From a virus, in IMG/VR virus record IMGVR_UViG_3300005838_000623, positions 28,696 through 92,695 of that record: a DNA stretch of 64,000 nucleotides; one strand, written 5' to 3'. A program made the translations under genes and the position numbers. Shown here piece after piece: positions 14,945 through 28,089 of this stretch (position 1 is the stretch's first letter; every line of letters starts with the position of its first letter). The notes beneath the pieces were generated by a model. It searched no databases. It was not told where the DNA came from and worked only from the letters and a program-made list of their open reading frames with translations.

Positions 14945-15124
14945 ATGTCGACAATACATGAGCAAATTTTAGATCAAGTAGACAGTTATTTGAAAGAATC
15001 AGCAAAATTCGAAGATAAAGGTGTAAAGGCGGCCGCCGCCCGTGCTCGTAAAGCACTAGGTGAAATAGGCAAACTATCTAAAGCACGTAGAGCAGAAATT
15101 CAAGATAAGAAAAACTCTATGTAA
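14945..15124 (+). CDS. Small conserved basic protein, histone-like helical
   Basis: 59 residues, preceded by an AAAGGAG ribosome binding site. It begins MSTIHEQILDQVDSYLKES and contains an Ala/Arg/Lys-rich helix (KGVKAAAARARKALGEIGKL). A closely similar short protein is, from memory, widespread in T4-like marine phages next to gp46 and has no assigned function. The basic C-terminal half suggests nucleic acid binding, which is inference. The stop and the next start share a base (TAATG), so it is coupled to the nuclease gene. A NotI-type 8-mer lies in the alanine run. Confidence 0.8.
   Translation: MSTIHEQILDQVDSYLKESAKFEDKGVKAAAARARKALGEIGKLSKARRAEIQDKKNSM
15029..15036. other. GCGGCCGC 8-mer (one of four)
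   Basis: NotI-type palindromes occur at 15029-15036, 19066-19073, 56909-56916 and 63631-63638, all within coding sequence (three in Ala/Gly-rich runs). For an AT-rich 64 kb region, random expectation is well below one. Confidence 0.85.
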
Positions 15125-15711
15125 TGCCTAGTAAGCAAAAAATAAAAGGCGCCACGTGGGAACGAGATGTTGCAAAACATCTAACAGAATTATATGGTGA
15201 AACATTTATTCGAGTTCCTCATAGTGGAGCTTACATCGGCGGATCAAACAAAGTACGTAAACAATACCTACATGAGGGAGTAATAAGAACCTTTAAAGGA
15301 GATATTATTCCAGGGCCTAGTATGCCCTATTTAAATGTAGAATGTAAAGCATATAAAGATTTCCCCTTCCATCACTTGCTTACAGGTGATGCAAAATTAT
15401 TAGATGAATGGATTAATCAAGTATTAGATTCAGCAGATGAACATGACTTCAATATGTTAATAATGAAGTTTAATCGAAAAGGCAAATACGTAGCAATAGA
15501 AGACAAACATTTACATCATAGATTTAAAAGGCACATTAATTACAAAGGATGGAATTTTAGTGAATACGACCAATTCTGGAAACTAAATTCCAAAACAGTA
15601 AGATTACAATCAGCGATAAAAAAAAGGCAAATTAAATATAATATGAAATCAATAACACAACCCACTTTTGGCTCCCATAGGCAAGTAAAAGAAACTAACA
15701 TAGCAACCTAA
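15124..15711 (+). CDS. PD-(D/E)XK nuclease, Holliday-junction-resolvase-like
   Basis: 195 residues. Core motifs are in the right order: E13 in the first helix (GATWERDVAKHL), D60 (FKGDIIPG) and E73-x-K75 (VECKAY), the restriction-endonuclease-like catalytic triad. Spacing and the small size suggest a resolvase such as Hjc-type enzymes, fitting its place beside gp46/gp47; a repair or genome-processing nuclease is the alternative. The last ~25 residues after the FWKLNSK segment look like an extra basic tail (Lys/Arg-rich, then Gln/Thr-rich) and differ in character from the domain. The gene ends 6 nt before the structured non-coding region. Confidence 0.75.
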   Translation: MPSKQKIKGATWERDVAKHLTELYGETFIRVPHSGAYIGGSNKVRKQYLHEGVIRTFKGDIIPGPSMPYLNVECKAYKDFPFHHLLTGDAKLLDEWINQVLDSADEHDFNMLIMKFNRKGKYVAIEDKHLHHRFKRHINYKGWNFSEYDQFWKLNSKTVRLQSAIKKRQIKYNMKSITQPTFGSHRQVKETNIAT

Positions 15712-15717
15712 ACGCAG

Positions 15718-16094
15718 TTAAGAGCTGCTCGCCTCGAGCACGTAGCATAGGCACGTGAGTACAAGAATTGGCGAAGTTGCAACCCAGGCTAAGGGCGCCA
15801 AAAGATGTGGATACAAGAAAAAGAAACCACAACTATTTTAATGTTGATACTATAGCATTAAAGTAGTCCCGCTATGACGAAAGTCAGAAGTCTGAGGTAG
15901 GGGGTACAGGGTAACCGCCTCCGTGCTAACGCAATCCTCAATAGTATATAATGAGTTAAACGATGGAAAAAGTACTCATGCTTCTCCTCACCAGGAGAAG
16001 TGTGAATAAAACTTCGGGAAAAAGATAACAAATAAATATTACTAAACGTTCAAGGTTCGAATGTAATGAAGAACCAGTTGAACGTAGTTCAACT
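15718..16094 (+). ncRNA. Structured non-coding RNA candidate / long 5' leader
   Basis: The only gene-free stretch above 300 nt. Stops occur in all frames and the first 240 nt are GC-richer (about 45% by hand count; 55% in the first 60 nt) than the AT-rich flanks. Perfect stems seen: TGCTCG/CGAGCA (15726-15740); TTGGCG/CGCCAA (15768-15801) enclosing smaller hairpins; TGTGG/CCACA (15806-15831); TTTAATG/CATTAAA (15837-15862); TGAC-GAAA-GTCA with a GNRA loop (15875-15886); TGAGG/CCTCA (15893-15940) enclosing GGGGG/CCTCC; ATGAGT/ACTCAT (15951-15979); CTTCTCCT/AGGAGAAG (15981-16000); and a 12-bp bulged stem (16047-16084). The density of stems argues for a folded RNA. I cannot place it in a known class; tmRNA, RNase P and canonical group I features were looked for and not found. 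It may be an independent RNA or the leader of the next gene. Confidence 0.65.
16047..16094 (+). promoter_or_regulatory. Mutually exclusive hairpins at the start codon
   Basis: TTGAAC at 16078-16083 can pair upstream with GTTCAA (16048-16053), extended by GGTTC/GAACC. It can instead pair downstream with GTTCAA (16087-16092) as an 8-bp hairpin (16076-16094) that ends on the base before the ATG at 16095. The two folds cannot coexist, as in switch or attenuator designs. No ordinary ribosome binding site is visible. Confidence 0.5.
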
Positions 16095-16802
16095 ATGCAA
16101 TATACATACGAAACACACTTCGGAAAACAAGAAACTCGAAATGTAATAATAAATTATGTAAGTTTACGCAACGTAGATCCACGGGAAGAATATCTAGCAC
16201 TTGAAAAGGGATTTGCTTTAGATATTGTTAAAGGTAAAGAAGAATGGTTCATGTCGCGTAATACGCGAATTAAATTATCAGAAACAAATTATGATAAGTT
16301 AGATTGGCAGTTGGGGTTAGCATGGCATTCAAATATAAAAGAAATGCCTAGTATGTTTCAAAACATTTTAACAAAGTATATACATCATAATAATTTCAAA
16401 AACATTTGGACTGTTAATGAAGATCATGATCGGTACCGATATATTTTATATTATCATAAAGGTAATATAGTGGCAATAACTAAAATGCTTCATTATCATC
16501 CACCATTTCCATTTGCTGATCATGACATATTAGAAACAAACTTTTTTATATGGAATTATCATGAACCTGAATTACATTTAGGAACTCTGACATTGGAACA
16601 TGAGATTGCTTGGGCAAAAGAATTAGGTTTAAAGTATTTGTATACTGGTCCTGGATATGAGCAAAGTAGCATATACAAATCCAAATTCGACGGTTTTCAA
16701 TGGTTTAACGGAATGGAATGGAGCACCGACGTGGAAAAGTATACACTACTTTGTCAACGGGATAGTAAAATACGGAGTTTTAAAGCGTATACTGAGATTT
16801 AA
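16095..16802 (+). CDS. Arginyl-tRNA-protein transferase-like (GNAT-fold) protein
   Basis: 235 residues. The C-terminal part (LHLGTLTLEHEIAWAKELG, then LKYLYTGPGYEQSSIYKSKF and the following FDGFQWF) resembles the C-terminal domain of ATE1/Bpt aminoacyl-tRNA-protein transferases, where LG-type strand, REIE.ARELG helix, YLYLGYYI and MxYKxxF occur in this order. Those enzymes transfer an amino acid from tRNA to protein N-termini. The usual N-terminal Cys-rich region of ATE1 is not seen, so the substrate could differ or the protein could be another GNAT. It sits directly behind the structured non-coding region and converges (4-base overlap) with the next minus-strand gene. Confidence 0.5.
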   Translation: MQYTYETHFGKQETRNVIINYVSLRNVDPREEYLALEKGFALDIVKGKEEWFMSRNTRIKLSETNYDKLDWQLGLAWHSNIKEMPSMFQNILTKYIHHNNFKNIWTVNEDHDRYRYILYYHKGNIVAITKMLHYHPPFPFADHDILETNFFIWNYHEPELHLGTLTLEHEIAWAKELGLKYLYTGPGYEQSSIYKSKFDGFQWFNGMEWSTDVEKYTLLCQRDSKIRSFKAYTEI

Positions 16803-24576: not shown

Positions 24577-25689
24577 ATGATAGAAGTATTCAAACCACTT
24601 ATCGACAATAACCTAATCTCAGAAGAAGCAAGAGATGAACTTCAGGAGGCTTGGGACACCAAGTTGACAGAAGCTGCTGAGCAAAACAAAGCGGAACTCC
24701 GTGAAGAGTTTGCACAGCGTTATGAGCATGATAAGGAAGCAATTGTCGAAGCCCTAGATACAATGGTTACAGATTCTCTAAAACAAGAAATCCAAGAATT
24801 TGTTGAGGATAAGCAAGCAGTAGTTGTTGAGCGAGTTGCATACAAGACAGCAATTGCAGAGCATGCCGATATGCTTAACACATTCGTAACAAAAAATCTA
24901 ACAAATGAAATGCAAGAGTTTCGCACAGACAGAGGTTCGCAGACTGAAGCATTTGGTAAGTTAGAGGATTTCGTAATCAAAGCATTAAGTGAAGAAATTG
25001 TCGAATTCAATGAAGACAAACAAGACGTAATTGATACAAAAGTTAAGTTAGTATCTGAAGCGAAAGCAAGACTAGCAGAACTTAAGAAGACATTTATTGA
25101 GCGTGGTGCTAAGATGGTGGAAGAGACTGTCACCAAAACTATTAAGGGTGAGATGTCACAATTAAAAGAAGATATCCAAAGTGCTCGTGAGAACAACTTT
25201 GGACGTCAGCTATTTGAAGCATTTGCCGCCGAATATTCAAATTCATATATGAATGAGAAGACTGAAGTAGCAAAGCTAATGAAGCAACTTTCCGATAAGG
25301 AAAACGAACTTGCGGAAGCAAGTAAAGAAGTAACAGAAAAAGATGCACTTGTAGAAGCAAGAGAGAGTGAGATCAGAATTATTAATGATCAAGCAAGCAG
25401 AAAAGAAGTTCTTTCAGAAATGCTTAACCCATTGGCTAAGGATAAGAAAGAAATTATGGAAAGTTTACTTGAATCAGTTCAAACTGATAAACTTAAAGCA
25501 TCTTTCGACAAGTACCTGCCCGCAGTTATTAATGGCGATGGTAGTGGTATAAAACGCAAACTAACTGAGTCAGTAAAGAAAGAAGTTACCGGTGATCGTG
25601 AAATCAAACAAGAAACTCAACCAGAGAACGATATCACCACTTCTAACATTATTGATATCAAGAAGTTGGCGGGATTAGCAGTTAATTAA
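24577..25689 (+). CDS. 22: Main scaffolding protein gp22
   Basis: 370 residues, nearly all alpha-helical and rich in Glu, Lys and Ala, as expected for the prohead core scaffold that directs gp23 assembly and is degraded by gp21. It begins MIEVFKPLIDNNLISEEARDE and has an AGGAGAG ribosome binding site. Coiled-coil-like repeats (QEFVEDK, MQEFRTD, VEFNEDK) recur at about 35-residue spacing between residues 65 and 155. The C-terminus IIDIKKLAGLA resembles the end of the 219-residue protein at 59717. Confidence 0.92.
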   Translation: MIEVFKPLIDNNLISEEARDELQEAWDTKLTEAAEQNKAELREEFAQRYEHDKEAIVEALDTMVTDSLKQEIQEFVEDKQAVVVERVAYKTAIAEHADMLNTFVTKNLTNEMQEFRTDRGSQTEAFGKLEDFVIKALSEEIVEFNEDKQDVIDTKVKLVSEAKARLAELKKTFIERGAKMVEETVTKTIKGEMSQLKEDIQSARENNFGRQLFEAFAAEYSNSYMNEKTEVAKLMKQLSDKENELAEASKEVTEKDALVEARESEIRIINDQASRKEVLSEMLNPLAKDKKEIMESLLESVQTDKLKASFDKYLPAVINGDGSGIKRKLTESVKKEVTGDREIKQETQPENDITTSNIIDIKKLAGLAVN

Positions 25690-27384: not shown

Positions 27385-27465
27385 CAAATGCGTAGTAATA
27401 CACTACGTTTATGGGGAACACCATCCCCGTAATCCATAGAATGGATAACCTTAAGGAGAAACAAA

Positions 27466-28089
27466 ATGGGAAGACCAATTAACAAAAAGCACATTGGTGA
27501 CGGTGTAGGTAAAATTCAAGTCACCGCAGTACGATTCGCAGCCGGCGCAGAAGTAGCTGCCGCAACAGAAGCACATATTATTCAGCAAAAAGGAACTAAG
27601 AAGTTTAAAGTAACTGATGGTTCCAAAACTGAAGTAGTTACCCTAGTAAATAAGAGCCCAGGCTCATTAGCAGCTAGTGAAATGTGTATTAACGTTACAG
27701 ACTCACTTGGTGTATCAAAGCAGATCACAAAATTACGCAACAGAACCTTCCAAGTTGAAGGCACATCTAACGCAAAGTGGTCACGTTCTGCTACTGGTAC
27801 TTCATCAGCAGTTGAAAAAGTTATCACAGGCGCAACAGCCGCCAACCCTGTAGTAATTACAAGTAATGGTCATGGACTTGCAAATGGTACAAAAGTTTCT
27901 ATCCGTGGTGTAGTAGGTATGGTAGAACTTAATGTTGAAACAGCATTTACTGTAGCATCCACAGCTACTAATACGTTTGCATTATCAGGTATTAACGGTT
28001 CTGCTTATACAGCATACACTTCGGGTGGTGTTGCAACAGCTGCCGCTGTAACTTCTGGTTCAATCGTAGTTGACGCACAAGTATCATAA
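27466..28089 (+). CDS. Virion structural protein with HGL-type beta module
   Basis: 207 residues. The C-terminal half holds a motif common in phage structural proteins: NPVVITSNGHGLANGTKVSI, then GVVGMVELN and TFALSGING (an FCCH-like small beta module). The N-terminus (MGRPINKKHIGDG) is basic. It is a single-gene late unit with its own late box, AAGGAG site and strong terminator, like its upstream neighbour. It is likely an abundant head or tail accessory protein; the exact role is unknown. Confidence 0.65.
   Translation: MGRPINKKHIGDGVGKIQVTAVRFAAGAEVAAATEAHIIQQKGTKKFKVTDGSKTEVVTLVNKSPGSLAASEMCINVTDSLGVSKQITKLRNRTFQVEGTSNAKWSRSATGTSSAVEKVITGATAANPVVITSNGHGLANGTKVSIRGVVGMVELNVETAFTVASTATNTFALSGINGSAYTAYTSGGVATAAAVTSGSIVVDAQVS

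Follow-up and report, generated by a model that had tools for sequence, protein, structure and literature searches.

The CsrB/RsmZ regulatory RNAs present repeated loops to a dimeric protein. The RNA described here is closest in spirit, though not by homology, to two other RNAs, GOLLD and ROOL. GOLLD is a large structured phage RNA whose 3' part is conserved and whose 5' part varies, and ROOL is a pseudoknotted, ornate RNA of phages and prophages; both form homo-oligomeric nanocages (PMC12286853). We analysed 64,000 nucleotides of a viral record from IMG/VR (hereafter the window), of which positions 15712-16094 on the + strand almost certainly encode a conserved structured RNA, as judged by comparing sequences. 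Like GOLLD, it is large, structured and phage-borne, with a conserved 3' and a variable 5' part, and like ROOL it is pseudoknotted, ornate and carried by phages (PMC12286853). It is shorter than GOLLD, however, and the GOLLD model matches neither 15500-16300 at E≤10 nor any relative; the present RNA occurs once per aquatic contig, often at a gp46/gp26 junction, and is multi-copy in RaK2-type phages. The ROOL model does not match either, and the present RNA was not found in a bacterial genome collection. With CsrB/RsmZ it may share repeated loops for a dimeric protein, which here is a candidate partner only; in contrast to those RNAs, its repeats are not consistently GGA, its two loops sit on a rigid pseudoknotted core and the motif differs between lineages.

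An Rfam covariance-model search, which the preliminary description of this locus had proposed, was run and found no family. No Rfam 15 model reached its gathering threshold on the RNA, nothing credible appeared in 15500-16300 up to E≤10, and none matched among the relatives; only chance matches were seen (rliB outside the feature, E 0.82; RefA5, E 6; mir-929, E 2.4). GOLLD and ROOL were taken as included in Rfam 15, since the profiles of the 2025 paper came from Rfam (PMC12286853). ARAGORN reported 0 tRNA or tmRNA genes across the window, with no Rfam match to either, and no group I or group II intron model matched at E≤10; the homologues that we read were intergenic. A known cis-regulatory motif, the freshwater-2 RNA (RF02980), also lies in the window (27391-27468, 63.9 bits) as a short leader directly before an ATG, and does not match 15712-16094. 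We found no published description of the RNA in the literature searched. Fremin, Bhatt and Kyrpides reportedly carried out a large structured-RNA screen of viruses in 2023, whose supplementary lists might contain part of the RNA, unnamed. Those passages of the CBB phage genome paper that we found report promoters and terminators and no such RNA. With no Rfam family, no annotation in the phage records read and no published description found, we consider the RNA to be new.

The element is about 380 bases long, with an approximate 5' end and a 3' limit just ahead of the ATG at 16095. Its parts and its immediate neighbours are as follows.

15124-15711, + strand: upstream neighbour, outside the RNA, a PDDEXK_15/RusA-like nuclease (PF24608, E 5.9e-28; phrog_244, E 1.5e-19)
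15712-16094, + strand: whole RNA module, a unit conserved across IMG/VR homologues; the ATG at 16095 directly follows the 3' twin hairpin
15714-15728, + strand: 5' hairpin GCAG(ttaagag)CTGC, with compensated stem changes in L044 and L048 (GCGG..CCGC)
15766-16032, + strand: match to covariance model R1 (105.4 bits, E 8.1e-27), a model built from aquatic relatives without the window
15832-15867, + strand: hairpin H5, an inverted repeat of 12 bp, 92% complementary, with a 12-nt loop bearing one pseudoknot strand; double changes in 8/9 pairs (helix 5)
15847-15853, + strand: pseudoknot 5' strand ATACTAT, partner 15941-15947 (permutation test, 83 distinct sequences)
15894-15897, + strand: helix H6 5' strand GAGG, partner 15936-15939; 99.7% paired, with AU/UA/GC exchanges
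15900-15922, + strand: invariant hairpin H7, GGGGGTACAGGGTAACCGCCTCC, with helices 7 and 8 100% paired; source of the motif for collection scans
15924-15933, + strand: hairpin H9, TGC..GCA, with double changes at all three pairs and up to 5 pair types
15936-15939, + strand: helix H6 3' strand CCTC (covariation analysis of helices)
15941-15947, + strand: pseudoknot 3' strand ATAGTAT (inverted repeat, mutual-information scan, permutation test)
15965-15972, + strand: DR1, first direct-repeat copy, GGAAAAAG (identity covariation)
15981-16000, + strand: hairpin H10, CTTCTCCT(cacc)AGGAGAAG, an inverted repeat between DR1 and DR2; helix 10 is 99.7% paired
16017-16024, + strand: DR2, second direct-repeat copy, GGAAAAAG (identity covariation)
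16054-16094, + strand: 3' twin hairpin, GGTTC-GAATGTAATGAA-GAACC then AGTTGAAC-GTA-GTTCAACT (pattern search of 97 loci)
16095-16802, + strand: downstream neighbour, outside the RNA, with weak similarity to an arginyltransferase C-terminus (PF04377, E 1.7e-4, 22.6 bits, under the curated cutoff of 25)

The RNA thus begins with a 5' domain, followed by the pseudoknotted core and then by the two identical, co-evolving loops with a hairpin between them, and it closes with the 3' twin hairpin. Hairpin H7 is centred on GUAC-MGGNYAACC-GC, and the core also contains the conserved unpaired stretches CCGTTG, GTGAAAAAG and TAACTTAAG.

The preliminary description had placed an unclassified structured RNA in a gap without a reading frame at 15718-16094, and its coordinates were nearly exact; as a whole its observation proved correct, even understated. 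ORFs of ≥60 aa are absent from 15712-16094 (the longest, 57 aa antisense and 32 aa sense, are both spurious), and the reported GC enrichment was seen again, at 0.39-0.44 in the RNA against roughly 0.27-0.37 for most neighbouring windows. Both stems singled out there are present, the GNRA one as TGAC-GAAA-GTCA at about 15875-15886 and the 8-bp one, with its 4-nt loop, at 15981-15988 x 15993-16000, and the two neighbours carry the labels first given to them, the downstream one as a sub-threshold match. A single-sequence fold of 15700-16100 reached -113.5 kcal/mol, while dinucleotide shuffles averaged -86.3 ± 6.0 (z = -4.56, 0/100); a trimmed version gave z = -3.98. Stems of a single sequence are by themselves little proof; comparison of about 100 homologues shows that the structure did not arise by chance. 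A degraded gene was considered and rejected on account of the absence of a long ORF together with the pervasive compensatory changes described below.

We asked how the RNA is distributed among uncultured viruses. The flanking proteins, used as queries, led to 53 viral loci, and reading of the spacers showed that the RNA adjoins a PD-DEXK gene in three lineages and that in many freshwater contigs it lies upstream of the arginyltransferase-like gene with a reverse gene in between. A motif taken from the RNA, GGTAG-NNN-GTACAGG-NN-AACCGC, matched 22 stretches; a relaxed form matched at least 120, at least one of them by chance (L128, within a GC-rich region, which was dropped). Model R1, built from 28 aquatic relatives with the window left out, matched 99/99 chosen loci at E≤1e-6, and the RNA is present in at least 100 IMG/VR contigs. 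Exactly one R1 match was found in each of 13 aquatic contigs of 125-347 kb and of 9 more of 40-95 kb, contigs that are possibly incomplete. Scans of bacterial and archaeal genome contigs gave 0 motif matches and later 12, none backed by the covariance model; these scans thus give no evidence for a host RNA. The source record of the window has 92,695 bases. Since an IMG/VR contig of 322,647 bases that has the same RNA encodes both flanking proteins with 100% identity, the window is most likely part of a jumbo phage.

The covariation check suggested at the outset was then passed by the homologues. In 99 model-aligned sequences (95 distinct), an alignment fitted to the structure and hence biased towards it, 98.1% of cells keep the consensus pairing, against 82.1% when shuffled, and 577 cells show double changes, against 128. 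The covariation score was 0.440 against 0.145 for shuffled alignments (0/500) and ≤0.089 for slid controls. Covariation in homologues and the lack of an Rfam match together strongly support the reading as an unclassified structured phage RNA. The pseudoknot is not part of the covariance model. Between the H5 loop and the strand after H6, the mean best complementary run was 6.99, compared with 4.57 ± 0.12 when partners were permuted (83 distinct sequences), which describes a covarying pseudoknot of about 7 bp. Its strands differ by lineage, ATACTAT x ATAGTAT in the window and AAACTGT x ACAGTTT in the L045 type. Among cultured phages they read ACTGTAT x ATACAGT in Munch and CTTGAAT x ATTCAAG in RaK2; the six cultured-phage entries had their strands chosen by eye and serve as illustration only.

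A mutual-information scan ranked five further column pairs beside the base pairs. They share a constant offset of 89 and are pairable in only 0.00-0.06; they correspond to the two copies of an 8-nt repeat that flank hairpin H10. The window has GGAAAAAG/GGAAAAAG as DR1/DR2, and relatives have AGATAATG/AGATAATA, GGATGATG/GGATGATA, AGATCAAG/AGATCAAG, ACATGAAG/ACATGAAG and ACGAAATG/ACGAAATA. Over 24 distinct pairs, DR1 and DR2 agree at 7.1 of 8 positions against 4.71 ± 0.24 when shuffled (0/2000). DR1 and DR2 therefore co-evolve as identical, not complementary, sequences. In cultured phages both repeats are CGTCAR (CTTCAAG in RaK2), the last repeat base (A or G) agrees between DR1 and DR2 in 9/9 aligned cultured copies, and the repeat is nearly unchanged among the paralogous copies of Munch. 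DR2, read off the sequences by eye, is not consistently within a stem. The complement of the repeats is no commoner inside or near the RNA than that of shuffled repeats; since there is no anti-repeat nearby, the partner of DR1 and DR2 is probably in trans.

Downstream of DR2, a pattern search found a first hairpin with GA/GA(A) mismatches soon after the repeat in 88/97 loci, and a second immediately after the first in 83/97, with 43 distinct stem sequences. The first-hairpin pattern occurred in 0/97 control regions, and its sole other match within the 64 kb, at 24998, has no second hairpin after it. As for promoters, a consensus TTGACA-17-TATAAT stands ahead of the RNA in L087 and a near-consensus promoter at the right distance in L115; several cultured-phage copies, those of Munch included, are preceded by sigma70-like TTGGGACA...TATAAT-like sequences. 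A convincing promoter was sought and not seen ahead of the window RNA, so that read-through from upstream is possible there. A TTAGGCAYA-like motif, possibly a phage promoter or processing signal, is repeated in the 60 nt before the RNA in aquatic loci, e.g. L139 and L080; single copies are found in the window (about 15679) and in L044.

The genes around the RNA were surveyed in 41 dereplicated aquatic loci with simple ORF calls, a few of which are possibly spurious; family names for the relatives' neighbours were read from the sequences, not by profile search. The order in the window is late sigma factor, SbcD/gp47-like, SbcC/gp46-like, Hc1-like, PD-DEXK, RNA and arginyltransferase-like, followed by reverse-strand genes including T4_baseplate (gp26-like). 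Of the 35 aquatic loci in which an upstream ORF was called, 33 have it directly 5' of the RNA and on the same strand. A next downstream gene was called in 35 loci; it is encoded on the opposite strand in 27 of these, and is often the same baseplate gene. The upstream gene varies, the commonest being GIY-YIG endonuclease-like; in freshwater loci such as L007, a GIY-YIG (SegE-like) gene is commonly found no more than about 60 nt ahead of the RNA, in the place held by the PD-DEXK gene in other lineages. In the window, a 59-aa protein of the histone H1-like Hc1 family (14945-15124, E 1.4e-11) is an unusual neighbour for a phage recombination operon. The product of 16095-16802, weakly similar to the C-terminus of arginyl-tRNA-protein transferases, has relatives in 38 IMG/VR loci; it has no PHROG and no match among 50,697 phage records.

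Blastn searches of the same 50,697 phage records with the RNAs of the window, L007 and L163 gave no credible match. A divergent relative, L151, provided a bridge: it matches Salmonella phages Munch, 7t3, SE_PL and PHA46 and Erwinia phage Hallingskeid, and with the copies of Munch and Hallingskeid as queries, 69 and 77 phage records, respectively, were matched, among them 121Q, PBECO4, RaK2, K64-1, GAP32, CBB and Serratia BF. Using a second covariance model, R2, built from cultured phages alone, we counted 5 copies in Munch, Hallingskeid, GAP32 and BF, 4 in 121Q and 3 in RaK2; CBB and XaC1 have 5 each. Cultured phages of E. coli, Salmonella and Klebsiella thus carry 3-5 dispersed same-strand copies, mostly where no gene is annotated: in Munch, 5/5 copies lie within 575-692 nt stretches without an annotated gene, and fetched copies of 121Q, GAP32, RaK2, BF and CBB occupy similar gaps. 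Small ORFs are annotated across the RNA in some records (e.g. Hallingskeid, 7t3 and another RaK2 copy). R1 scored 39.8 bits in Munch, 36.0 in 121Q, 26.7 in BF and 25.5 in RaK2, and R2 scored 39.9 bits on an aquatic contig of the L050 lineage; because each model finds some members of the other lineage, the two form one family. Its features (H5 with the pseudoknot, the H6-H7-H9 core, DR1/DR2 and the 3' twin hairpin) are all found in the window. The family spans T4-like aquatic phages and ~350-kb RaK2/121Q-type phages. Neither R1 nor R2 had a significant match in T4, Pelagibacter phage HTVC008M, Salicola SCTP-2, Pseudomonas PA5oct or Sinorhizobium Phosso.

All supported copies in Munch, Hallingskeid, GAP32, BF, CBB and XaC1 are on one strand per genome. 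Copies are spaced more evenly than random in Munch, Hallingskeid, GAP32 and BF (P 0.0004-0.002, spacing variation), those of Hallingskeid being 65-79 kb apart (P about 4e-4). The even spacing in the 5-copy genomes is suggestive; copy positions are probably largely shared by descent among the cultured phages, so that the spacing counts about once. At the 182-kb copy of Munch, the upstream genes are annotated as an ATPase and a recombination endonuclease, and the downstream one, on the reverse strand, as 'base plate'; this copy retains the gp46-RNA-<gp26 arrangement of the window. This shared arrangement suggests that the gp46/gp26 junction is the ancestral site and that the remaining copies are later duplicates.

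We propose, with a probability of about 0.45 and from sequence comparison, that the RNA is a stable trans-acting phage RNA whose two identical loops are gripped by one partner, likely a dimeric phage protein. Transcription would start at a sigma70-like promoter of its own, or else the RNA would form the 3' tail of the upstream operon; in either case the transcript would end or be trimmed at the twin hairpin. The rigid core would position DR1 and DR2 for simultaneous binding by one partner, most likely a homodimeric RNA-binding protein that the phage encodes; the outcome may be an RNP, or sequestration of the protein by a CsrA/RsmZ-like logic. A shared partner would lead DR1 and DR2 to change together as identical sequences and the paralogous copies in one phage to have nearly the same repeat. 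A trans-acting RNA is favoured because of the conserved core, the variable neighbours, the opposite-strand downstream genes and the multi-copy state, and a single partner reading both loops because of the identical-loop co-evolution. The dimeric-protein step is drawn from the repeat pattern; an RNA partner in trans, or recombination between the two repeats at the DNA level, could likewise maintain their identity.

The suggestion in the preliminary description that the RNA might be a leader does not hold for the family: no conserved place 5' of a same-strand gene was found, the downstream gene being on the opposite strand in 27/35 dereplicated aquatic loci, and in cultured jumbo phages the RNA is dispersed in 3-5 copies, of which several directly follow sigma70-like promoter sequences. 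It is to be set against this that the downstream gene of the RNA in the window runs in the same direction, its start codon directly adjoining the last hairpin. If the RNA acted in cis, it might rather be a 3'-end or processing element of the upstream operon (a 3' UTR stabiliser, a terminator or an RNase-processing module). Its place directly 3' of a same-strand gene in 33/35 aquatic loci, the convergent gene that often comes next (27/35) and the resemblance of the twin hairpin to a transcript end all fit such an element; but the RNA stays while the upstream genes differ (GIY-YIG-like endonuclease, PD-DEXK, SGNH hydrolase-like, tail-fibre-like), the cultured phages have several copies with promoter-like sequences, and a pseudoknotted core with co-evolving loops far exceeds the needs of a 3' end, which makes this account rather unlikely. 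Unlikely, too, is an architectural assembly made of RNA alone, as with GOLLD and ROOL, in which the RNA would self-associate into an oligomer with DR1/DR2 and the twin hairpin as subunit contacts. The setting is that of the GOLLD and ROOL nanocages, large pseudoknotted RNAs of phages (PMC12286853), and identical loops could make symmetric contacts; however, Rfam gives no match to either RNA, and the repeats are mostly not self-complementary, so that simple kissing between identical loops fails as an explanation.

The direct repeats and the one-strand, evenly spaced copies of the 5-copy genomes could also belong to a DNA-level or replication element, a transcript priming several origins with DR1/DR2 as iteron-like sites. 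Against this, the covariation sits in RNA pairing, pseudoknot included, aquatic contigs of 320-350 kb have a single copy, and the spacing carries the weight of about one observation if the cultured copies are largely orthologous, as is probable; a search for replication origins by GC skew found no switch at the Munch copies. We regard such an element as quite improbable. Least probable is a ribozyme or intron-like RNA (a divergent group I/II or a permuted, circle-forming intron) with the repeats as two substrate sites. Its compact pseudoknotted core with conserved unpaired stretches and the endonuclease genes that often adjoin it would suit this idea, yet no intron or ribozyme family matched at E≤10, no internal guide complementary to the repeats was found, and no gene was split at the site in the loci read.

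Returning to a trans-acting RNA with one partner, it is about an even chance that the family represents a phage RNA machine of a new class that is widespread among T4-like and giant phages, whose two identical loops co-evolve with a single partner specific to the phage, and of which large enterobacterial phages carry several copies, evenly spaced and on one strand. Such a class would have escaped notice even in the cultured phages of E. coli and Salmonella. That the RNA is shared by uncultured lake and marine phages and laboratory-growable E. coli phages, in up to 5 copies, points to a giant-phage function. Identical-loop co-evolution is an unusual pattern; it suggests that the partner can be found, and it would escape comparative methods seeking only complementary changes. 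Since 121Q-type phages grow on E. coli (one record gives K-12 MG1655 as host), expression, partner and requirement are directly testable. Lastly, PA5oct (MK797984) has a stretch of about 1.5 kb beside a RusA-like gene (L266, 1479-2991) that matches neither R1 nor R2; it contains only tiny scattered ORFs and may hold another unlisted RNA.
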